NCBI RefSeq assembly: GCF_027579695.1
Contig: NC_083587.1
Coordinates: 38,540,732-38,604,731, forward strand
Direction: 5' to 3'
Origin: Neoarius graeffei
Lineage: Eukaryota; Chordata; Actinopteri; Siluriformes; Ariidae
Length of the DNA: 64,000 nt
The notes below the pieces were generated by a model, which had not been told where the DNA came from, did no database searches, and saw only the letters and a program-made list of their open reading frames with translations. Within the stretch, counting starts at the first letter, position 1, and the number at the start of each line of letters is the position of its first letter. A program made the position numbers and the translations under genes. Positions 4,106 to 60,154 of this stretch are shown here, one piece after another.

Positions 4106-4374
4106 TGTAACACTTCTGTATGCGGGGGTGGAGCACAGAGGATGGCAGGACAGAGATCAGGTTCAAAATAGGCTTTATTGCCACACTTTTCAGTGAACAA
4201 TTTCAATACCAAACAACACACACAACTGGCATCTAGTTCAGGGATGAGCTCCTCTGCTCTCGCTCTCCCTCCTTAAGTAGGGTGCGGTCACTGGGAAGAC
4301 ACACAAACAGGTTAATTGCTCTCAGGTGTAGTGATTCTGCCACTTACCTTCCCTGACTCCGCCCTCCTGTCACA
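4106..4374 (-). repeat. 3' LTR of the Gypsy element
   Basis: Read on the - strand, the segment begins TGTGACAGG and ends GTGTTACA, giving the expected TG...CA ends within a near-palindromic TGT(G/T)ACA. It is 269 bp. An AATAAA signal lies at 4174-4179 (- strand), followed by a GA/CT-rich stretch that could form R/U5. The pol reading frame runs into it and stops at 4312. No second LTR is in the window, so the boundary rests on these termini only. Confidence 0.6.
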
Positions 4375-7190
4375 GACCGGCGCTTGACCACGCCCCCGCT
4401 GCCACATACCCCTACCACCCGACTCAGGCCGGGTGGCCATCCGGCCTGCAGCCGACTGCCCCCCCCCCCCCCCCCCTTGACGGGAGAGGAAGTCTGCCAC
4501 GACCATCTGCGCCCCCAGCCTGTGGACCACCTTGAAATTAAAGGGTTGGAGTGCCAGATACCAACGGGTGATCCGCGCGTTGGCATCCTTCATGCGGTGG
4601 AGCCACTGGAGGGGCGCATGGTCCGAACAGAGGGTGAAAGGGCGCCCCAGCAGGTAGTACCGGAGGGCCAGGACCGCCCACTTGATGGCCAGACATTCTT
4701 TCTCTATGGTGCTGTAGCGCCCCTCACGCACCGACAGCTTCCTGCTGATGTACAGGACGGGGCGGTCCTCCCACTCCACCTCCTGGGACAAAACAGCCCC
4801 CAGCCCTCTGTCCGACGCATCGGTCTGCAACATAAAGGGGAGAGAAAAGTCAGGGGAGTGTAAAAGTGGCCCCCCACACAGTGCAGCCTTTACCTCAGAA
4901 AAAGCCCGCTGGCATTGCTCCGTCCACTGGACCGGATCTGGTGCCCCCTTTTTAGTGAAGTCAGTCAGCGGGCTGGTGACGTCTGAATAATTAGGTATAA
5001 ACCTATGGTAAAAGCCAGCCAGCCCCAGGAACTGTCTCACCCCCTTTTTGGTCTTGGGCCTCGGGCAGGCCGCAATTGCTGCCGTCTTATTAATTTGGGG
5101 ACGCACCTGCCCGTTGCCCAAGTGGAAGCCCAGATACCATACTTCCACCCGCCCAATCGCACACTTCTTTGGGTTGGCTGTGAGCCCCGCTCGCCTCAGC
5201 GACCTAAGGACGGCCCTCAGATGTTCGAGGTGCCGCTGCCAGTCATTACTATAGATGATGATGTCCGCATAAGTGGCGTGAGGGCAGAGGATTCTGTCCA
5301 TCAGCCGCTGAAACGTAGCGGGTGCCCCAAACAGCCCAAATGGAAGGGTGACGAATTGGTGTAAACCAAACGGTGTGGAAAAGGCCGTTTTTTCTCGGGA
5401 TAGTGGAGTCAAGGGGATCTGCCAATATCCCTTCGTCAAATCCAGCGTCGAATAAAAGCGAGCAGTGCCGAGTCGATCGAGCAACTCATCAATACGAGGC
5501 ATTGGGTATGCGTCGAATTTAGACAGCGCATTGACTTTTCTGTAGTCCACACAGAACTGGACCGACCCGTCGGCCTTGGGTACTAAGACCACCGGGCTGC
5601 TCCAGTCACTGTGGGACTCCTCGACGATGCCCATTTCGAGCATGGTCTCAAGTTCTTCCCGAACCACCTTTTTTTTGTGCTCGGGTAGTCTGTAAGGGCG
5701 GCTACGCACTACTACCCCCGGGGGCATCTCTATGTGGTGCTCTATGAGGTTAGTGCGACCGGGCAGGGGCGAGAACACATCCGAAAACTCGGCCTGCAAC
5801 TGGGCGACCTCTGTGAGCTGGGTCAGGGAGAGGTGGTCTCCACAGGGGACCGGAGGGGTACGTGATGTCAATGCCCCTTTTTGAACCTCCGGCCCCAGCT
5901 CCGCCTTCTCCGGAACCACCGACACCAACGCCACGGGGACCTCCTCCTTCCAGAGTTTAAGGAGATTGAGGTGGTAAATTTGTAGCGCCCCACCCCTGTC
6001 CGTTCGCCTCACTTCGTAGTCGACGTCCCCGACTCACCGTGTGACCTCAAAGGGACCTTGCCACTTGGTGATCAATTTGGAGCTCGAAGTGGGCAACAGT
6101 ACGAGTACTTTATCTCCCTGGGTGAACTCCCTAAGGCGCGTACCCTTGTTGTACAGGCGGGCTTGCCATTCCTGGGCCTGCCGCAAATTCTCCTGGGTTA
6201 GGTGGGTGAGCGTGTGGAGTTTTGCGTGCAGGTCCATAACGTATTGAATTTCATTCTTGCTTTGTGAAGGTCCCTCCTCCCAATTTTCCCACAGCACGTC
6301 TAAGATGCCGCGTGGCTTACGCCCATATAATAATTCGAACGGGGAGAACCCCGTGGAGGCTTGGGGAACCTCTCGCACTGAGAACAACAAGGGTTCGAGC
6401 CACTTATCTCAATTACGTGCGTCCTCACTGACGAATTTTTTAATGATATTTTTGAGGGTGCGGTTGAACCATTCCACTAAACCGTCCGTTTGTGGGTGAT
6501 ACACACTGGTGCGGATCGGCTTAATCCCCAATAACCCATACAGTTCGTGTAGTGTTTGTAACATAAATGTAGTGCCTTGATCAGTCAGAATCTCTTTCGG
6601 GATTCCGACTCGGGAGATGACGCGGAAGAGTGCCTCTGCAATACTGCGTGCTGAGATATTGCGCAGAGGCACTGCTTCCGGGTATCGCGTTGCATAGTCC
6701 ACCAGAACTAATATAAAGCTGTACCCTCGTGCTGATCGATCTAATGGCCCGACGAGATCCATCCCAATTCTCTTAAACGGGGTCTCGATCAACGGAAGAG
6801 GGCGCAAAGGCGCTTTTGGAATGGCCACTGGATTTACTAACTGGCATTCGCGGCATGCCGTACACCACCTACGAACATCACCGCGAATCCCCAGCCAATA
6901 GAATCGGGCCATTATTCGGGCTAGTGTTTTATCCTGCCCTAAGTGTCCAGCCATGGGATTAAAGTGAGCTGCCTGTAATACCAATTCCCGGCGGCTCTTT
7001 GGAATCAAAAGCTGCGTGACTCGCTCTTTAGTTTGAGTGTCCTGTGTCACTCGGTATAATCTATCCTTCATAATCGCGAAGTACGGGAAGGACGGGGTGG
7101 CGTTCGGCTGGAGCGTTTGACCATCGATTACTCTCACTTGGTCAAACGCATGCCGCAGTCTCGTCTCGCGATTGTTCTAATGGGAAATCC
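4312..7190 (-). pseudogene. pol: Gypsy pol: integrase then RT-RNase H, interrupted
   Basis: From the 5' side of the - strand: an HHCC zinc finger (H..H, CTACRECQ) and a DDE integrase core (GMDLVGP, LTDQGTTF, GLVEWFNRTLK). A C-terminal GPFEVTR region follows. Then come RT motifs (CVDYRKVNA, TLDLTKGYWQIPL, LPFGLFGAPATFQ) and RNase H residues (QTDASDRG, EKECLAIKW, SDHAPLQWL). The three long segments share one frame and are split only by TGA codons at 6409-6411 and 6034-6036. A small deletion near 7160 breaks the frame upstream. The RT box at 5263-5271 reads Y-A-D followed by III, so the usual YxDD has lost an aspartate. A glycine run from a C/G homopolymer lies near 4461-4479. Confidence 0.85.
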
Positions 7191-8187: not shown

Positions 8188-8361
8188 TATATTGTTTAGT
8201 TTTATTTTATTGTGAAAAATGAGACAGACAGCTCCCTGAATTTTTCAACTTCCTTTGCTGTTCTTAAACTTCAGGGTGTACAATTACATTAAACATAGTG
8301 TGTACGGCATTAGACACGGTGTTCGACTTCGGCCCCAAAATTTCATTTCGGTGCATCCCTA
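8188..8361. mobile_element. hAT-type terminus
   Basis: The segment ends in TTTCATTTCGGTGCATCCCTA, whose reverse complement starts TAGGGATGCACCGAAATG, a familiar terminal inverted repeat of fish hAT elements. The other end was not identified upstream, so this is a partial or heavily mutated copy. Confidence 0.45.
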
Positions 8362-13655: not shown

Positions 13656-14420
13656 TCGAGCAGCTGAGATGTCACAACGGTATATGCACCAGGGGACTCC
13701 CACCTGGCTGCTCCACCTGCATTGCTGTGACGCGGAGGGGAGGATACATGCAAGTTAACATGCGGTCTACAAAGAGGGCTCATACGTACATAACTTTTGA
13801 GATATCTGTCTACTACTGAGCAGGATAGAAATCATTGTCTTAAGAGCCCCGCTCAATTTCCACGCTGTTTACAATGACTTTGCCCAAACGCGGTGACTAG
13901 TGGACCGTCTGAACTCGCGTGAAGCTGTCTGTCGTAACGCAAAGTGACTCTGGCTAGATATGTGTTTAAACCCTGCATTACATCTATTCTGTTCCTGGTC
14001 CCACTTCAGACATGTGGAAAAGATGGTCCCACTCCCGGGTGGACATTTAGACTTTTGTTTAATACGGTAATAACAAAAATAGTGGCTGTATTCAGCTGAC
14101 CTTTTGAAACATATGTTCACTTTATTTTGAGTAGCAGGAAAATTATTATTATAACAGTAATTATTATTATTATTATTTATTTGTTTATTTTTTTACTTAT
14201 TTATCTATCACTTTCTTCTTCGCTCCCCTTATTTCTTATATCTACCAATATGTACTTACTTTGACCACCCTTCTTAGTTATTTATTGGCTGCTGCTGATG
14301 TTGCTAATATTAATATATAGATTTAGGCACTGCCTACAAGCGGAGCCCCCATCTGTTTCTGGGTTGTAGAATTTTCTTATATCATAACCAGTCTCTTTTG
14401 CTTTATTTCTTTACTGGCTA

Positions 14421-17010
14421 GCACTGGCCACTAGGCGGTCTGTATGACTGGTAATTACTAACACTGGCCACTAGGCGGTGTGTATGACTGGTAATTACTA
14501 ACACTGGCCACTAGGCGGGCGGCACGGTGGTGTAGTGGTTAGCGCTGTCGCCTCACAGCAAGAAGGTCCTGGGTTCGAGCCCCGGGGCCGGCGAGGGCCT
14601 TTCTGTGTGGAGTTTGCATGTTCTCCCCGTGTCCGCGTGGGTTTCCTCCGGGTGCTCCGGTTTCCCCCACAGTCCAAAGACATGCAGGTTAGGTTAACTG
14701 GTGAATCTAAATTGACCGTAGGTGTGAATGTGAGTGTGAATGGTTGTCTGTGTCTATGTGTCAGCCCTGTGATGACCTGGCGACTTGTCCAGGGTGTACC
14801 CCGCCTTTCGCCCGTAGTCAGCTGGGATAGGCTCCAGCTTGCCTGCGACCCTGTAGAAGGATAAAGCGGCTAGAGATAATGAATGAATGGCCACTAGGCG
14901 GTGTGTATGACCGGTGGTACATGTACACGGACAAACCACAAAAAATCGACTCGATGGGTTTACCATTTTTTCTTAGGTATGGTGTTCTGCTCGGAGCTCC
15001 ACTTAAATAAAATAAAAATATATAGATTTAGGCACTGCCTAAAAGCAGAGCTCCCATCTGTTTCTGGGTTGTAGAATTTTCTTATATCATAGCCAGTCTC
15101 TTTTGCTTTATTTCTTTACTGGCTAGCACTGGCCACGAGGCGGTGTGTATGACTGGTAATTACTAACACTGACCACTAGGCGGTGTGTATGACTGGCAAT
15201 TACTAACACTGGCCACTAGGCGGTGTGTATGACTGGTAATTACTAACACTGGCCACTAGGCGGTGTGTATGACTGGTAATTACCAACACTGACCACTAGG
15301 CGGTGTGTATGACCGGTAATTACCAACACTGGCCACTAGGCGGTGTGTATGACCGGTAATTACTAACACTAGCCACGAGGCGGTCTGTATGACCGGTGAT
15401 TACTAACACTGACCACTAGGCGGTGTGTATGACTGGTAATTACTAACACTAGCCACTAGGCGGTGTGTATGACTGGTAATTACTAACACTGGCCACTAGG
15501 CGGTGTGTATGACTGGTAATTACTAACACTGGCCACTAGGCGGTGTGTATGACTGGTAATTACCAACACTGACCACTAGGCGGTGTGTATGACCGGTAAT
15601 TACCAACACTGGCCACTAGGCGGTGTGTATGACCGGTAATTACTAACACTAGCCACGAGGCGGTCTGTATGACCGGTGATTACTAACACTGACCACTAGG
15701 CGGTGTGTATGACTGGTAATTACTAACACTAGCCACTAGGCGGTGTGTATGACTGGTAATTACTAACACTGGCCACTAGGCGGTGTGTATGACTGGTAAT
15801 TACTAACACTGGCCACTAGGCGGTGTGTATGACTGGTAATTACTAACACTGGCCACTAGGCGGTGTGTATGACCGGTAATTACTAACACTAGCCACTAGG
15901 CGGTGTGTATGACCGGTAATTACTAACACTGACCACGAGGCGGTGTGTATGACCGGTAATTACTAACACTGGCCACTAGGCGGTGTGTATGACCGGTAAT
16001 TACTAACACTGGCCACTAGCCGGTGTGTATGACCGGTAATTACTAACACTGGCCACTAGGCGGTGTGTATGACCGGTAATTACCAATACTGGTCACTAGG
16101 CGGTGTGTGTATGACGTAATTACTAACACTGGCCACTAGGCGGTGTGTATGACTGGTAATTACTAACACTGGCCACTAGGCGGTGTGTATGACGTAATTA
16201 CTAACACTGGCCTCTAGGCGGTGTGTGTATGACTGGTAATTACCAACACTGGCCACTAGGCAGTGTGTGTATGACTGGTAATTACCAACACTGACCACTA
16301 GGCGGTGTGTATGACCGGTAATTACCAACACTGGCCACTAGGCGGTGTGTATGACCGGTAATTACCAACACTGGCCACTAGGCGGTGTGTATGACGTAAT
16401 TACTAACACTGGCCACTAGGCGGTGTGTATGACCGGTGGTACACGGACAAACCACAAAAAATCGACTCGATGGGTTTACCATTTTTACTTAGGATCTGGT
16501 GCTCTGCTTGGAGCTCTGCTTAAATAAAATAAAAATATATAGATTTAGGCACTGCCTAAAAGCGGAGCTCCCATCTGTTTCTGGGTTGTATAATTTTCTT
16601 ATATCATAGCCAGTCTCTTTTGCTTTATTTCTTTACTGGCTAGCACTGGCCATGAGGCAGCGTGTATGACTGGTAATTACTAACACTGGCCACTAGGCGG
16701 TGTGTATGACTGGTAATTACTAACACTGGCCACTAGGCGGTGTGTATGACCGGTAATTACTAACACTAGCCACTAGGCGGTGTGTATGACCGGTAATTAC
16801 TAACACTGACCACGAGGCGGTGTGTATGACCGGTAATTACTAACACTGGCCACTAGGCGGTGTGTATGACCGGTAATTACTAACACTGGCCACTAGGCGG
16901 TGTGTATGACCGGTAATTACCAATACTGGTCACTAGGCGGTGTGTATGACCGGTAATTACTAACACTGACCACTAGGCGGTGTGTATGACCGGTAATTAC
17001 TAACACGTTC
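14421..17010. repeat. 40-bp minisatellite (three arrays)
   Basis: The monomer is 40 bp; its core reads CACTGGCCACTAGGCGGTGT followed by GTATGACTGGTAATTACTAA. There are about 3 copies at 14421-14518 plus 14888-14915, about 33 at 15127-16435 and about 9 at 16646-17005. Variant positions (T/C in GACTGG/GACCGG, GGCC/GACC/AGCC, CTAGG/CGAGG) make individual units traceable. A seven-monomer, 280-bp block starting at 15281 repeats at 15561, which shows higher-order duplication. Confidence 0.95.
14519..14887 (+). repeat. V-SINE, full length, inserted in a minisatellite monomer
   Basis: The copy is intact, with B box GGGTTCGAGCCCC, the core domain and a GATAATGAATGAA tail. The 14-bp target duplication TGGCCACTAGGCGG (14505-14518 and 14888-14901) is itself part of the 40-bp monomer. 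The insertion therefore post-dates array formation in unit 1. Confidence 0.95.
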
Positions 17011-18141
17011 TAAAAGTTAAAATTTACTCACAAAGTTGTCACCGTCATTATCAAATTAAAACAAAACTCATTTGCATATCAGACCTTGATTGGTTGAAAT
17101 CATTGGGGCTATTTTGTGATGTCACAAACCAAGTTCATATGTAGCCCCGCCCCAAATAAGTTTTACTCAGAAATCATCTGTTTTTTTAAGCAGGTGTGAA
17201 ATTAACAAGTGATAAGAATTTAATGACTAAATAGTTTTTAACTGTTGATTTTACACTATAAAGGTTAATTAATCACCACAACATTTTAATTCTTTCAAAT
17301 TTTATTCACGTTTAATGCCTTGCCGTGCCTATGACCGGTGGTACACGTACACACCACAAAAAATCGACTCGATGGGTTTACCATTTTTTCTTCGGTATGG
17401 TGCTCTGCTCGGAGCTCCGCTATAATTATTATTTCATTTATTTATCTTTTTACTTGTGTACCTTAGTGGTATTATTTACTTATTTGTTTTCTTTAATTCA
17501 GTAAAATATATTTGGGGAACCAGGGAGCATAGATCACCAACATGGGTCAGATAATCATTTAACTCTGTTCCCCTTCTACATGGCATTCCCCTTATAAACC
17601 ACTGGATCATGCTATACCGGTACTTCTAGTCTGCTTCAAGGTGAACTACCAAATCTCGTGTTTATGCTTTAAATTCTAGTAATATTTTTTTTCCTTTCTT
17701 TTTGATATGTAACTGCTTCTTGGAATTTGCACCATGGTTTGATGCTTAATATATATAATTTTTTCTAACTGTTGAGAGGTCGTGTAGAGAGAGTGGAGAT
17801 TTACCTACCCAGTGGGGTTGTTTAGTACTAAGGGTATTCATGGGTGGGTCGCATAGGGGGTTTGGTACGGGTTTCACTTAAAAGCATTGTTACTCACCTA
17901 ACTTTCATTTTATATGTAAGCACTGAGGCTCCCAATATACTTAAGTTGCATCTGTTACTAAGATATGACTCGCCAACTAAACTTAATTTCTTTGAATGTC
18001 AGGGGAATCAATTCTCCAATTAAGAGGAGGAAAATTTTGACGTACTTAAAGAGACAGTCCATTGATGTTTCATTTATTCAAGAAACTCACCTTTCCAATG
18101 CAGAGCATATCAAACTAAGGAGAGATTGGGTGGGAAACGTC

Positions 18142-19875
18142 CAGGGGCGTATCAAGCTTTCCAAAAGTAGGGGTGTTCTGACTGTCAATGACCGATATGG
18201 AACTTTTTCATACCCATGGTCCATGGATGCAAATGAAAGGGAGGACAGCAGAAAGCCTATAAATCCAGTTGACTCCAACCAAGTTCTGCATTTCATGCAG
18301 AGAGCTATCATGTTGGGTTTTGGTGTTGTTACTGCCAGGGCTATGTAATTATTCAGTAAGTGAAGGCAAAAAGTATTGAGTGATAATTCTAGGTAACAGG
18401 ATACTGTTCTATAACAGAGATGTCAGTATTGCTGCCTATAGGCAGCACTGGTATATACTGATACACTGGTATACACTGATATAAATAAAACCAAAAACTT
18501 CACATAGCCCAAGAAGTCATACACAGTGTATAGATCATACACCATCATGCATAACAGTTTGGACTCGGATCGCTTTGTGTGAGCAGGAGGCATGGCTAAT
18601 CAGTTCATGTTGGAGAAGCGCAGCATCCTGGAAGGACCTCTTTAGTATAGCATTCAAATAAGACGGGGCAGTTCCTGCTTTTAATGTTTTTAATGCTTTT
18701 AATTCAAACTCGCGTACAAAACTTGTTTGCATCATGCATTACATCAGGTTTAATGCATAAAATTTGAAAATGATGCAATAGACTACACATACAACAAACA
18801 CTTAATGGCCAAGTAACATTACTGTACAACAATTATTGAAGATTCATTCGATTTGAAATGCCTTTAAATCTCAATTGAAAAACTCTTCTAATATAATAAA
18901 TAACAAATAATAATAAACTCATAATAAAAAACTTGCCTCAACTGACTTTACAACTAGTAACTACTACTATTTAACATCATTGTCAACAAATCCTGACAAC
19001 CTTACTTCACCCTGACACACTATTTGTGTTTGAAACAACCAAATGTGTTTTTTCTTTGCTCCTTATAAGAAACAAATTGTTGAGCAATCATTTGTCTGTC
19101 CAACAGGTCAAGTTTGTTCTTCTGAACATGATACACAGCTACACTATTAAGACGTGTTTGTGTCATGCTACTTCGCAGCCATGTTTTCAGCCTTCTTAGA
19201 ACAGATCATTCATACATTACTCACTTTTTAATATTATACAGACATTTAAGTGCACATGTCAAGCAAACCTATCCAAGTTGCTTTGGATAAAAGTGTCTGC
19301 TGCTACTAAGTATAATGTAATGGAACTTAACATTTTTGGATGACATAATCAAGAGCAGTAATATAATCAATGTAGGTTCATATAATCAATCAAGGTTTTG
19401 GAGGTTGTTGATACTTCCTTTGCTATTAGACATTCATCATTAAAATGGTGTACCCCTACTTCAAAAACAAAAAGTTAGCCACTCAGAGATTGAGGAGGAC
19501 TCAATATGGTTCTACAAAATAGCTTAATTATCCCCAACGTGATCACACAAAAGCCTAAAAACATGTTCTACTTCTCCACGTACTCGATTGGAATACTAAA
19601 TACTGGCTTCTCGTGGTGACACAAACAAGACAGTTTTGGTGACTGAGCGAGTCAGCCAAGTTCGGGTGAGAAAAATTGTTTTGAGTCCGTTGCGTGGCTG
19701 TTTTTTGTCTAACGTTTTGGCAAGAGTTTACTTCCTTGTTACACATTTTATAGTAGCTGTATAATTTTCATAATGATGTCATTTTAATCTGACAAAAGTA
19801 CGGGGGATGAAATTGTGTTTCAACAAAAGTGGGGGGGATGAAACGTACGCATCCCCCGTGGGTGATACACCCCTG
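18142..19875 (-). mobile_element. hAT transposon, internally deleted, with 8-bp TSD
   Basis: The termini are CAGGGGCGTATCA (18142-18154) and, inverted, TGATACACCCCTG (19863-19875), with one mismatch. The flanks GAAACGTC (18134-18141) and GACACGTC (19876-19883) form an 8-bp target duplication with one mismatch. Removing the element restores the L1 endonuclease frame (WVGNV joined to YHSS). Only the transposase C-terminus remains inside, on the - strand, so the element is non-autonomous. No second large frame is present. Confidence 0.88.
19020..19200 (-). pseudogene. hAT transposase C-terminal dimerisation segment
   Basis: On the - strand the frame reads RLKTWLRSSMTQTRLNSVAV and continues about 35 residues to a TAG at 19020-19022. 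The pattern K-x-W-L-R-S-S-M....RLN-x-x-A is the hAT C-terminal dimerisation motif found in ZMYM1-like and related fish transposases. The catalytic core is missing, so this is a relic inside the deleted hAT. Confidence 0.7.
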
Positions 19876-21641
19876 GACACGTCTACCACTCCTCATTCAA
19901 CACACAAGCTAGGGGGGTTGCCATCCTTATTAATTAAAAAATTGAACTTCAAATTAACATCAATAGAAAAAGATAGTAATGGAAGATTTGTCTTAGTTAA
20001 GGGTGAATTGAACTCTAATAGGGTTACACTTGTTAATATATATATATGGCCCCAACCACGACGATCCTGCTTTTTTTAATGACCTTGTATTAAAACTTGC
20101 AACTGCTGAGGGGCACTGTTTGGTTGGTGGTGACTTCAATTTGGTATTGGACCCCAATTTAGATCGATCCACGCCAAGATCTCTGAATCGCTCTAAGGCT
20201 GCTTCAGTTCTGCTCAGGGGGATGAGGGATTTGGGACTGTGTGATGTTTGGCGGCAACTTAACCCAAAAGCTAAAGACTTTTCATTCTTTTCAAATGTTC
20301 ACAAGTCGTATTCCAGAATTGACATGTTTTTAATACCCTACAATATGGCTGCCAGGGTCACCGATTGCTCTTATCTATCAGCTATATTGTCCAATCATAA
20401 TCCTATAAAAATAACCTGGGAGTTTGATGCTACACAATCGAAACCCTTTACCCTGGAGGTTTAAATCTGAAGGACCCTGAATTTATTAGATTTATGAGTG
20501 CTCACATTGATGTATTTATGGAAACGAATATTAATTCCTCATCTCATGCTTTTATATGGGAGGCCTCAAAAGCATATATGAGAGGCCAGATCCTATTGTA
20601 TAGCTCTTAGAAGATCAGAGAAAAAAAGAAAACTCTTGCAAATTTGGAAAACGAAATAAGAGACCTGGAGCGTGATCATGCTCACACTAAAAGTGAAGTG
20701 GTGCTCAATACCTTGTCTTTAAAACGGATTCAATATAATAACTTATGTACTAATAAGGCTGAAGCTGATTTAGCTAGGACCAGCTATCATTACTACGAAT
20801 TTGGCAACAAAACCAGCAAGCTACTAGCTTGGCAAATTAAAAGGGCAGAAAACAAAAAAAAAATATACATTCTATTATCACAGACAATGGAAGATCCATT
20901 TTTAATCCACATTATATCAATCGTGAATTTCAATTATTCTATGAGACACTATATAAGACAGAACATGGGATTGAGAACACCAAAGGAACAACATTTTTAA
21001 GTTCATTAACCCTGCCTAAATTAGACCCTGTTGATAAAAACTGCCTGGATGCTAATATATCTGAAAAGGAGGTTCTTGATGCTATGAAATCCCTACAAAA
21101 TAATAATAAAGCCCCTAGGCCAGATGGTTTTCCAATTGAATTCATTAAAACCTTTTCTGATAAGCTTATAACCCCTTTAACAAACATGATCAACGAAGCA
21201 CTGACTAATAAAACTCTCCCTAACTCTTTGAAATTGGCTACGATAATTTTGCTACCAAAATCTGGAAAGGATCGCCAAAAATGTACTTCTTATCATCCTC
21301 TCAGTCTTCTGAACTTGGACTATAAAATTTTATCAAAGTTAATTTCATTTAGATTGGAATGTATAATCCCAAAAATTGTTAATGCTGATCAGACAGGCTT
21401 TGTTAAAAATCGATATGGATCGGACAATGTGCGTAGACTTTTTCATATAACTGAAGCAGCCCACTCACAAAAGGACCCCATGCTAATACTGTCAATGGAC
21501 GCGGAAAAGGCGTTCAACAGGATCGAACCCAGCTTTCTCTTTCAAACTCTTGAAGCAATTAATTTTGGAACTAAATTTATTTACTACATTAAAACACTGT
21601 TCAACGGCCCTAAAGCAAACATTTTAACAAATGGGGTCTTA

Positions 21642-22126
21642 GGGCCTCTGCATGCTCTTGCGACAAGGCTTTCGCAGATAGCTTTTCGCAGACAGTTGTA
21701 ATTTATCGTTGAGCGGGGAGTAATAGGCGTGCGCGATGTTATTCACCGCCACAATGCAAGGGGGCGCGAAGTCGCGAAATCGTTAGGAGTAGTTGGTGGG
21801 TGTGGTTAGTGTAGTGTTTATCCTCCGGTTACTTATAATGACTAGAACTGGAGTCGTATAGATGTACGTACTTCCTCACTTCCTCGATCAACCGCTCTTC
21901 GGGCTGCTCGTGTTTTTAAAAATGGCGGTAGTGAAAACAAACCAAACCGGGAAAGTAGGGAAGCGGAAGTGTGTGTACAGCGGATGTAGAGTGGACCAAT
22001 CGGAGCCCTCTTGTCTGCGAGACTTCTGCGGTGTTCACAATTTTTGAGAGGTGTGCACAGAGTGTCTGCGAAGGGGGGGGGCTACGCAGACGCCATCTGC
22101 GACGCCATCTGCGAGGACTGCGTTGT
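21642..22126. mobile_element. PIF/Harbinger-like MITE in the L1 RT domain
   Basis: The block starts GGGCCTCTGCATGCTC after a TTA and is exactly bounded by L1 codons: the frame reads GTCTTA | AGCATA when it is removed. A GGGC start next to TTA suits Harbinger-type elements. However, the right end (GCGTTGTC) is not the inverted copy of the left end and no second TTA is seen, so a right-end deletion is likely. Several TTCGCAGA and CATCTGCGA motifs occur near both ends. A 41-residue frame begins at about 21922 (MAVVKTNQ). Confidence 0.5.
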
Positions 22127-22940
22127 CAGCATAAATTGGCCTTTATCGGATATCTTCTCACTATCCAGGGGGGTCCGTCAGGGCTGACCCTGCTCTCCAT
22201 TGTTGTTCTTGATAGCCATAGAACCTCTGGTTATTGCTATTTGCTCTGACAACACAATTACTGGTATTAGATTTGGGACAAGTGAGCATAAACTGGCTTT
22301 GTATGCAGATGACCTATTAGCCTTTGTGGCTGACCCTGCAAACTCCCCCCTTACAATATTTCCAACAGTACAGTGCAGCTTCTGGCTGTAAACTAAACCT
22401 TACGAAAAGTGAGGTCCTGCCCTTAAACATACAGGACAACTATATCAAGAACTTAACCAAACCTTTGCAATGGTGCCCCAGTGGACTTAAATACTTGGGG
22501 ATAGAAATTCAAACTTCTGTAGATAAAACCTTTAAAGAAAATTATATCAGTCTCTTAGACCAGGTTAAAATAGATTTATAAAACTGGAGGGACCTTCTGT
22601 TATCACTAATTGGCAGAGTTAATCTAATTAAGATGTGCATCCTCCCCAAATTCTTATATCTTTTCCAATGCATCCCATTTAAAGTACCCAAATTTTTCTT
22701 TGATGACCTAAATAAATCTTTATGTAGTTTTCGTTGGAAAGGTAAATCCCCCAGAGTCAAACTATCAACTCTTCAGGCTCCATACTCTAAAGGAGGGTTA
22801 AATCTTCCCAATTTTAGATGCTATTACCTTGCAGCTCAGTTTTGCTCAGTATGGTGCTGGCTACATGGGGACAAATGTGTGGCAAGATGGCTCCCTATTG
22901 AACAATGCCAATCAAAACATGTTCCGTTGAAGTCTCTTCC

Positions 22941-23082
22941 TTTCCTAACCTCTAAGAAAATACTCCTAAACATTACTAAGAAGTTCTTAGTAATGTTTAA
23001 GAGTATTTTCTTAGAGGTTAGGAAACCTAACCTCTATTTAGTAATGTTTAGGAGTATTTTCTTAGAGGACCTCTAAGTCCTC
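22941..23082. repeat. multi-fold palindrome at a hAT insertion junction
   Basis: L1 sequence 22941-22982 is followed, after one base, by its own reverse complement (22984-23025) with a single mismatch. The sequence then folds back again: CCTAACCTCTA (direct), then 31 bases of the inverted copy (about 23038-23068), then CCTCTAAG (direct). The hAT begins right after this, at about 23083. The 15-bp centre CTAAGAAGTTCTTAG is built from the 8-bp target site CTAAGAAC. Confidence 0.9.
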
Positions 23083-24438
23083 TACGAGATGCACCGATTG
23101 ACCGGCTGCCGATCGGAATCGGCCGATTTTCACGTGATCGGCCATGACCGGCGACCGGACGGTCAAAATTAAAATATGCCGATTTTCTGCCGATCAAAGC
23201 TTGTGTATCACATAGAGATGAAATTGGAAATACTCGTAATTCGCAACTAAAAAGACTGCAGCTACACTGGCAGCTTGAACATGCTTTCATGCCCTTTTAT
23301 TTAAGTTTCACCTATTTATTTTTATTTATTTGTTAATTGTATATCCTTATATGGCAAGTGTATCACCTGTTTTCATTGAAAAAGACCATACAAATACATA
23401 TTTGTCAAATATGATATAATGGCATATGGCAGTATGACTGAATTATTTTTGTATTTTTTGTTACTGAATGTGGGAAGAAGAAAAGGGCTGTTCCATAAGG
23501 GTTAAGTTTTCAGACCCAGGGGCATCATGGCTTAGGTGGCTAAGGCGCCATACCATAAATCCGGGGACCCGGGTTTGATTCCAGCCCGAGGTAATTTTCT
23601 GATCCGTCCCTGTCTCTCTTTCCCACTCATTTCCTGTCTCTACACTGTCCTATCCAATAATAAAGGTAAAAAAAATCTTTAAAAAAAAAAAAGTTTTCAG
23701 ACCTAAATATGAAAGTGTTCCAAAGCAATATATCCAAATATAGTGAATTTTTTTTTTTTTTGTGCCAGATATTGGATGTGAAAAGAAGAAAATGTTTGTG
23801 GTTGTGTGAATTTCCCATTACAGGAATTAATACGTTAGCCTATTACCAAATATCTAGTTAGATTTGTACAAAGAGAGAGAAAAAAAATATATGTCTTTGT
23901 TTTACGACTTTGGTTGCACTTGATTCCATTGGAAATTACTCTACAAATACACATTTGACAAAGATGATAGAATGGCTATGGTATAAGCATGACTGGAAGT
24001 TATATTTGTATTTTGATACTGAATGAAGAAATGGGTTGTTCTATAAGGCATACGTTTTCAGATCTAAATAGGCTTATGAAAGTGTGTTCCATAGCAGTAG
24101 GCAAATAATATATGAGGGGGAAGTTGTTTTTGTGCCAGATATTGGATGGGAAAAGAAAAAATGTTTGTGTGAACTTCCTATTTCAGGAATTAATATGTTA
24201 ATACCAAACATGAAGAATGTTCTTTGTAAATCTATGTCTTTTTGTTTGTTTTCAACCTTTGAGGTGTTAAATTTATTACTGAAAATCTGGCAGAATGTTC
24301 TATTAAAGAAAAGATAAAAAAGAAAATAGTCTTTGTGTGTGCTGTGAAGTGGTTTGAAAAAAATGAAATCAGAATCGGCAGGTCACACTCCATGGAAAAT
24401 CGGAATTGGCCCAAAAAATTGCAATCGGTGCATCTCTA
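23083..24438. mobile_element. hAT-like non-autonomous element in L1
   Basis: The ends are GAGATGCACCGATTG (23086-23100) and CAATCGGTGCATCTCTA (24422-24438), a 15-bp inverted repeat typical of fish hAT elements. L1 resumes at 24439 with CTAAGAAC, the presumed 8-bp target copy, and the protein frame is restored (NITK joined to NPIIL). The other target copy is represented only by the palindromic filler on the left. Internally there are GATCGG-rich subterminal repeats and a SINE. No transposase frame is present. Confidence 0.8.
23517..23690 (+). repeat. tRNA-derived SINE inside the hAT
   Basis: The head has an A box (TGGCTTAGGTGGCTAAGG) and a B box (GGGTTTGATTCC) of RNA polymerase III. A CCCGTCTCTC-type body (ACTCATTTCCTGTCTC) and a poly-A end follow. 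A 13-bp target duplication AAGTTTTCAGACC flanks it (23504-23516 and 23691-23703). It is a different family from the V-SINEs and is the innermost layer of the L1-hAT-SINE nest. Confidence 0.9.
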
Positions 24439-25582
24439 CTAAGAACCCTATCATTTTGAACTCTTTCTCTGCATGGCGTGAAGCTCATGCTGTCATTGGT
24501 CTGAACATCTCTCTGTTTCATAAAACTCCTCTATGTGATAATCCCAACATTTCCCATCAGATTACAGATGGAATATTGAGCAATTGGGTTAGTAAGGGCA
24601 TAAAAGCAGTTGAAGATCTGTATATCCAAGGTGAATTTTCAAACTTTCAACAACTGATAGAGAAATTCAAACTACCCAAACATAACTTATTTAAATATTT
24701 TCAAATTAGACACTGGATCTGCAATAACTGTTCAGACTTCCCTCATATCCCCCCGGAATCCCCGTTTGAAGAACATTTAATGTGTGAAACATTAAACACT
24801 AGTAAGGGGTTGATATCTTCTATTTGTTATTTTAAATAACCTTACAATATATAAGATTAATACAAAGAAGAAATGGGAATCAGATCTTAACATAAGATAT
24901 GACGATAATGACTGGTGTAATATCCTTGAAATCTCTCAATCAGTACTAATCTCAAAACACAGACAAATACAGTTTAATATATTTAATAGAACTTATTATA
25001 CTCCATATAGACTGCACAAAATACACCACAACTCCTCTCCAAATTGTCAGAGATGTAGAACCTGTGAGGGGGACTTGCTTCATATGCACTGGAAATGTCC
25101 TAGCTTGGAAACCTATTGGAAATACATCATTAATATAGCTTCAAAAACTACAAATATCAAGATTCCCCCTGACCCGAGGATATGGATTCTGGGAGATATA
25201 CAATCTCTAGATGTAAGCTTTACTAAAAAATATTTAATATTACTTATGGGTACAGCTGGTAAAAAATTTATTTTGCAGAATTGGAAATCAGAGTTTTCTC
25301 CATCACAGAGACAATCGTTAAATGGTATTAACATCCTACAGCACACCTGAAAAAATCTTATTGAGTGTGAGGAGGAACCCAGAGAAGTATGAAAAGATAT
25401 GGGGCTCGCTCTTGGCCTTACTACCATCATTACATTACTTTAATTAGTACATCAGTATATAACTTGCTGCCCTTTACTATTTTGTCACCATGATTTTATG
25501 ATTATTTGGGACCTCATACATCATTTGATTGTATTTTATTTTGATTTTCAGATGTAACCAAAGGTGAACTCATGCAATTGTT

Positions 25583-59127: not shown

Positions 59128-59273
59128 ATATAATAAAAAGAAAAATCACACGTCGGCTTGAAGATGTGAAATTTATCTTCTCGTGTTGAAAAACTCACAT
59201 TTTTCATACGAAATACGTCGCAGATCTGAACGACATTTAAATAATACCGGCTGGCTTTTTTATCATTTTATCA

Positions 59274-59367
59274 TATATCAGGTATGTTCCATTCAGCCAG
59301 CATGATACTGAACGAGTCAAAGACTAGTTCAATATCATGCTAGCTGAATGGAATATATCTGATATAC
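59274..59367. repeat. imperfect inverted repeat, 40-bp arms
   Basis: TATATCAGGTATGTTCCATT-CAGCCAGCATGATACTGAAC (59274-59313) pairs with its inverted counterpart at 59328-59367, with a 14-base loop. Pairing can extend outward (CTGGCTTTTTTAT against AAAAAAAGCCACCAG). Confidence 0.85.
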
Positions 59368-60154
59368 CACAAAAAAAGCCACCAGTATTATTATTATTCT
59401 ACTACATACACACACACTTCCAGTTTTTCGATGTCCGTTGGTATGTTTTTCTCTTGTAAATATGTGTGAAGAATATCTAATAAAGTTTTGGCAGCCTTTC
59501 GGGTGTTCAGCACGTCTTTCTCTTTCCCGGTGAACAAAGAAATGCTTCTGTGCATCCACAGCAGAAAACTCTCATATTGAATATTTGCATCAGCTCCGAC
59601 GTGTGACATGTCTTGACAACCATACAATATCGTAAAGCATATTCAACGCTCATTCTCCATTTAGTAGAGTGACATAATACACGTAGGATAAGCGATGTAC
59701 TAACTGCATGCTATCAAATCAAATGAATGAAACATGCTAGAATGGAACAGAATATGTTTTTTTTTTATTCCATAAAAAAAGTGTCCTGTATAATAATTCC
59801 CGATATTTCACTCTGATGACGTCACTCCCAATGTTTTCCTGCTGACGTGATATACATTAAAATGGCAAACTGGTTCAAAATTATTATTTTTTTGTGGATG
59901 TGTCTGTATAATAAAAAAATATAACATGGTGGCGTGATAATATGGAGCTTGTCTTCGTGTGGTGAGCATGCTGAACATATGAAGTGAACAAGTGATAAAT
60001 TTTTCAACACGAGAAGATAAACTTCATATCTCCAAGTCAAGGTGTGACGCTCTTTTTATGATATAAACACCTTTGCAAACAAAAAGTACCCAAATGTATC
60101 ACAACGATTCATCGATATCCTCAAGCGTGACATAGTGAGAAATATTCTTTCCGC

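Follow-up and report, generated by a model that had tools for sequence, protein, structure and literature searches.

How did a transposable element that still occupies its insertion site come to be bordered, on one side only, by a long palindrome of the DNA that it interrupted? The locus lies in a window of 64 kb, by which we mean the whole stretch of DNA that was analyzed. A retrotransposon flank runs to position 22982 and is followed by 103 bases of filler (22983–23085), a hAT-type element (23086–24438), a target site (24439–24446), and the retrotransposon again.

The interrupted retrotransposon and the inserted element

The insertion target consists of the remains of ORF2 of a non-LTR retrotransposon (17965–22982, plus strand), recognized by Pfam matches and by an open frame over the joined site. 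The upstream part contains an RVT_1 match at 21084–21698 (E value of 6.4e-17), and two Exo_endo_phos pieces (17965–18345 and 20030–20461) score under the curated cut-off of Pfam. No Pfam family was found in the pieces of the retrotransposon that touch the insertion (22633–22983 and 24441–24836). The retrotransposon was named L1 in the initial annotation, and this label presumably fits. A search for a second L1-type copy in the 64-kb window gave none, the matches being the query itself and the filler. The comparison with an empty L1 site that had been suggested was made by joining the flanks. When they are joined at the 8-bp target site, a single open frame of 224 codons is obtained, which continues across the join through 24447–24839 (plus strand) up to a stop, and the other two frames are rich in stops. 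The inverted sequence is absent from this frame, and its origin as a native part of the retrotransposon is unlikely, since the 224 codons do without the inverted copy. The filler was most likely added to the retrotransposon, because the frame of the joined flanks runs on without it. By chance, the left-flank frame also remains open within the filler up to 23076, so that the argument for an addition rests on the frame resuming to the right of the element as well. Other retroelement pieces lie at 4312–7137 on the minus strand, where matches to families of reverse transcriptase and of RNase H, and to integrase families, were found in two ORFs; these pieces are presumably of the Ty3 type.

The inserted element (23086–24438) begins with GAGATGCACCGATTG on the left and is complete to CTCTA on the right. 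Its inverted ends are perfect over 15 bp, and their terminal motif is presumably of the hAT type. Non-autonomous hAT copies lack a transposase gene, and no ORF of at least 120 amino acids lies wholly inside this element. Seen from outside, the right end reads TAGAG; the left end is imperfect and reads TACGAGATG, as against TAGAGATG predicted from the right end. Either the terminal TA (two bases) has been lost, in which case the element starts at 23086, or one C has been gained, in which case TACGAGATG is the terminus with an extra C and the start is 23083. The right target-site copy, CTAAGAAC (24439–24446, plus strand), forms a clean junction and fits the 8-bp hAT target-site consensus nTnnnnAn, which is given for Hermes (PMC2803484, PMC6900584). 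The assignment to hAT made in the initial annotation is thus supported by the 15-bp ends and by this site.

Two features were observed inside the element. Its segment 23364–24200 contains an internal duplication, with parts that are 76% and 85% identical and lie 553 and 370 bases apart. At 23504–23703 there is an insertion with a tRNA-like head and an A-rich tail, called SINE-like by eye and flanked by a 13-base direct repeat, AAGTTTTCAGACC. An ARAGORN tRNA search and an Rfam search at gathering thresholds gave no match in the window, this insertion included. No other copy of the element was found in the window by blastn, which matched only the element itself and the repeats inside it. With up to three errors allowed, further occurrences of the 17-base element end lie at 8344 and 49270 (minus strand), neither with a partner end; the former is a lone hAT-like end, TAGGGATGCACCGAAATG, at 8344–8361. 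The exact 17-base end occurs at 7 loci in viral_contigs and 10 loci in genome_contigs. No second inverted end with three or fewer mismatches was found near these 17 loci in the DNA examined, and they are therefore read as chance matches.

The palindrome and the origin of the filler

The arms 22941–22982 and 22984–23025 pair at 41 of 42 positions around a single G at 22983. The inverted repeat had been described in the initial annotation as 42 bp long with a one-base spacer and one mismatch, and its position, spacer, and number of mismatches all proved exact. With a match scored as +1 and a mismatch as −2, the palindrome reaches 39, whereas the maximum among 60 sequences of 2 kb, simulated from the local sequence with a first-order Markov model, is 12. 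It also tops the list of short-spacer inverted repeats in the window, in which plain TA repeats reach 38. A search for perfect inverted repeats (arms of at least 10, loops of 0–8, simple-sequence filter) gave 16 matches in the whole window; the 15 of these 16 that were listed represent about five places, two of which (22967 and 23012) are at this site. A near-palindromic, MITE-like stretch was observed at 59241–59400, with arms at 59274–59318 and 59322–59366, a 3-base loop, and the outer ends AATACCGGCTGGC and GCCACCAGTATT.

The center of the palindrome is CTAAGAA-G-TTCTTAG. The left target-site copy is represented by seven of its eight bases, CTAAGAA (22976–22982, plus strand); the G at 22983 replaces the expected final C, and the filler separates this copy from the element. 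The view that the center was made from the 8-bp target site and its complement therefore holds for the seven bases in the left arm, whereas the full CTAAGAAC is found only at 24439–24446.

The filler can be parsed almost entirely into copies of the end of the retrotransposon flank, that is, of its last 42 bases (22941–22982, plus strand). The first fold-back (22983–23025, minus strand) comprises the central G and the inverted copy of 22941–22982, with its mismatch at 23000. It is followed at 23026–23036 (plus strand) by a direct copy of 22944–22954, which forms a stem of 11 bp with 23012–23022 (11/11) across the loop AAA. After a single T at 23037 that has no template in register, 23038–23068 (minus strand) is an inverted copy of 22949–22979 (31/31). 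At the position that corresponds to the changed base 23000, this 31-base copy retains the original one, and so it was templated either by the flank or by the inverted copy before the change. At 23069–23077 (plus strand) there is a direct copy of 22948–22956, and an 8-bp stem is formed by 23061–23068 and 23070–23077 (8/8), with a single A at axis 23069 as its center. The last segment (23078–23085, minus strand) is TCCTCTA with one extra C; its seven bases are the inverse of 23063–23069, a part of the filler and not of the flank, and the stem 23063–23069/23078–23084 (7/7) has a spacer of 8. The statement that at least two shorter fold-backs follow the long one was borne out by this base-by-base check. 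No clear priming homology is visible by eye at the turns at 22983 and 23026, and the switch at 23037/23038 has the one unmatched T.

Of the 103 filler bases, 93 fall in exact matches, at least seven bases long and on either strand, to the terminal 43 bp of the flank. For the second part of the filler (23026–23085), 51 of 60 bases are covered by exact 7-mers of the same 43 bp, compared with at most 24 of 60 when the filler was shuffled (2000 shuffles). Other 43-bp pieces, taken in 20-base steps from the left and right flanks, cover at most 15 bases (left flank from 22000) and at most 21 bases (right flank to ~25400). Derivation of the filler from the right flank or the element was rejected; exact matches there are of 7–8 bases and 7–9 bases, respectively. 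A chance origin of the palindrome and the filler was likewise rejected by the Markov score and the shuffle controls. The filler is self-derived from the neighboring flank; as in templated insertions, it is copied from near the break in both orientations.

Proposed mechanism and alternatives

With Hermes, the nick falls in the flank, one base away from the element. The non-transferred strand is the first to be cut by Hermes, whose hairpin is formed on the flank (PMC6900584). Kat1 also forms flank hairpins, with product sizes of 29 and 22 nt (PMC4763223), and these sizes would fit a hairpin that is flush and lies one base in from the end. Blunt cuts are also described for hAT enzymes in a review (PMC8151067). 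The blunt cuts and the Kat1 sizes indicate that a one-base offset is not general for hAT enzymes.

The best explanation of the site, to which we give an even chance of being correct, is that a hAT transposase cut the left end, and that a hairpin formed on the flank, was opened ~42 nt away, and underwent self-templated synthesis and rejoining. A non-autonomous hAT-type element would have entered the retrotransposon copy with an 8-bp duplication, and the left junction alone would have been broken, during the insertion or later. A left-only break is the simplest account because the right side is clean and the left side is damaged. The hAT transposase most likely made its nick in the flank, one base away from the element, and linked the resulting 3′ end to the other strand, which would give a closed hairpin on the flank. 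If this hairpin was opened ~42 nt from its tip and not at the tip, the flank would have been left with a self-complementary 3′ tail. Repeated synthesis on the last ~40 flank bases may then have extended the tail; the copied segments are present in the filler, and polymerase theta or delta are candidate enzymes. The tail would finally have been joined to the left end of the element, at which the loss of two terminal bases or the gain of one is observed. The outcome would be a scar on one side of an element that stays in place and has probably become immobile.

If the hairpin had a one-base offset, the left arm should lack the last base of the target site and be followed by the complement of that base, and this matches the sequence. 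When 0–4 bases were trimmed from each strand, only 1 of 25 combinations gave the observed center: one base off the top strand and none off the bottom strand. The hairpin proposed in the initial annotation gains from this fit, but the same geometry recurs in the fold-back around axis 23069. The single base at its center complements the next base that was skipped, at a place where a transposase would not be expected to cut. The one-base geometry is thus not specific to a hAT cut, and the repair process itself may generate such centers. The distance also counts against the best explanation, 42 nt being a long way from the tip for a hairpin to be opened. Repeated template switching, which the initial annotation had offered as the alternative, accounts well for the later copies, with their alternating segments of 9–31 bases, and less well for the first turn, at which no priming homology is visible. 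The hairpin and template switching may be successive steps rather than alternatives.

The main competitor, which we consider unlikely although it carries substantial weight, is a double-strand break of any cause at the left junction that was mended, with no covalent hairpin, through repeated rounds of folding back and templated copying by polymerase theta or delta before the ends were joined. It is favored by the copies of 9–31 bases in alternating orientation that follow the 42-base copy and derive from within 42 bp of the break, and by the one-base center common to two folds. Yeast breaks show fold-back inversions of 2 to ~150 bp, most of them <14 bp (PMC11724301), and two terminal base pairs are enough for polymerase theta to start stem-loop synthesis (PMC11292364). 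The difficulty lies in the first turn: there, the central G complements a base that is missing from the left arm, and no priming homology is seen. One would not expect a strand to turn back on itself through a loop of a single base. A flank hairpin is favored as the origin of the first fold-back on the grounds that such a loop should not form in a simple fold-back and that the templating base is missing, as far as can be judged from the sequence.

Abortive gap repair after full excision is rather improbable. Copying of the sister chromatid from the right would have halted when two bases of the left end were still missing, and the product would have been joined to the folded-back left flank. 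The damage would then be one-sided, as observed, and rice excision sites carry filler of 1–123 bp (PMC4423477), but it would be a coincidence if the copying had stopped no more than two or three bases from the left end. Fusion of the left flanks of sister chromatids head to head after cutting, with a second breakage 42 bp away, would likewise yield a head-to-head copy, and inverted duplications of flanking DNA can result from sister-chromatid transposition of Ac/Ds (PMC3744419). This course is very unlikely, as the second break would have to fall merely 42 bp from the fusion, and the further short turns are left unexplained. Equally slight is the chance of a sequencing or assembly artefact, against which stand several turns within 103 bases, after which the sequence resumes into the element, and the base change in one copy (23000) that is absent from the 31-base copy.

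The preferred course, a hairpin after a cut at the left end alone, would be an error of the transposition system. Synapsis before catalysis is described as a guard against one-ended reactions (PMC6182136), and the single-end products in that paper came from an engineered Tn5 transposase. In the sections of the literature consulted, no statement on one-end cutting by a hAT transposase was found.

Relation to known repair scars, and other features of the window

Footprints left by excision of Ac/Ds contain P-nucleotide-like bases. Such bases are also attributed to Tol2 excision footprints in a review (PMC8151067), and TcBuster footprints contain inserts of a few bases complementary to the flank, which were ascribed to hairpins (PMC3499496). 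The present site resembles the TcBuster and Tol2 footprints in having an inverted flank copy that starts from the transposase cut, here with the one-base offset shared by axis 23069; in those systems, the copy is ascribed to hairpin opening. The hAT footprints described in these papers consist of a few bases at an empty site, whereas here 42 bp and further copies, 103 bases of filler in all, stand beside a retained element. An inverted duplication of ~200 bp of flank is said to occur at an excision site of Tam3, a hAT element, in the nivea gene of snapdragon; it would be alike as an inverted flank copy at a hAT site, and would differ in lying at an excision site and in its length of ~200 bp. 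Tam3 is cited for flanking rearrangements (PMC3744419).

Templated insertions and fold-back inversions at break sites also contain short inverted copies of break-adjacent sequence (PMC11724301, PMC11292364). The fold-back inversions of yeast are primed by microhomology as well as mostly short, whereas the first turn here has a one-base center and shows no clear microhomology by eye. The filler of rice excision sites (mean of 13 bp; PMC4423477) is alike in lying at a transposon junction, but there the element is gone and the filler is called foreign, whereas here the element is retained and the filler is self-derived. Arms of 42 bases are long for either known process, hairpin footprint or fold-back inversion. 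It is the arm length together with the retained element that is unusual; hAT hairpin footprints and templated insertions are already known. In the listed titles and abstract openings from the open-licence literature searched, no long palindrome of the flank beside a still-present hAT element is mentioned.

We offer as a tentative reading, which we would not yet call probable, that the locus is the germline fossil of a hAT flank hairpin cut at one end and opened ~42 bases from its tip, and that long palindromic tails may stand beside elements that never left. So far, hAT flank hairpins have been documented by biochemical work and by the small footprints left at empty sites, and a single unreplicated case is a curiosity. 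If such scars recur at retained elements, failed one-ended transposition could be counted from genome sequences, and the scars would reveal the distance from the tip at which flank hairpins can be opened in a germline. They would also point to an origin for new short palindromes and for elements immobilized at one end.

Elsewhere in the window, a tandem array of a 40-bp unit extends over 14418–17006, with 2.5 copies at 14418–14518 and 47 copies from 15123 to 17006. A dispersed repeat of ~370 bp at 14517–14886 recurs in other parts of the window. The segment 35027–35395 matches the GTP-binding domain of elongation factor Tu and is possibly a gene exon or a retrocopy.
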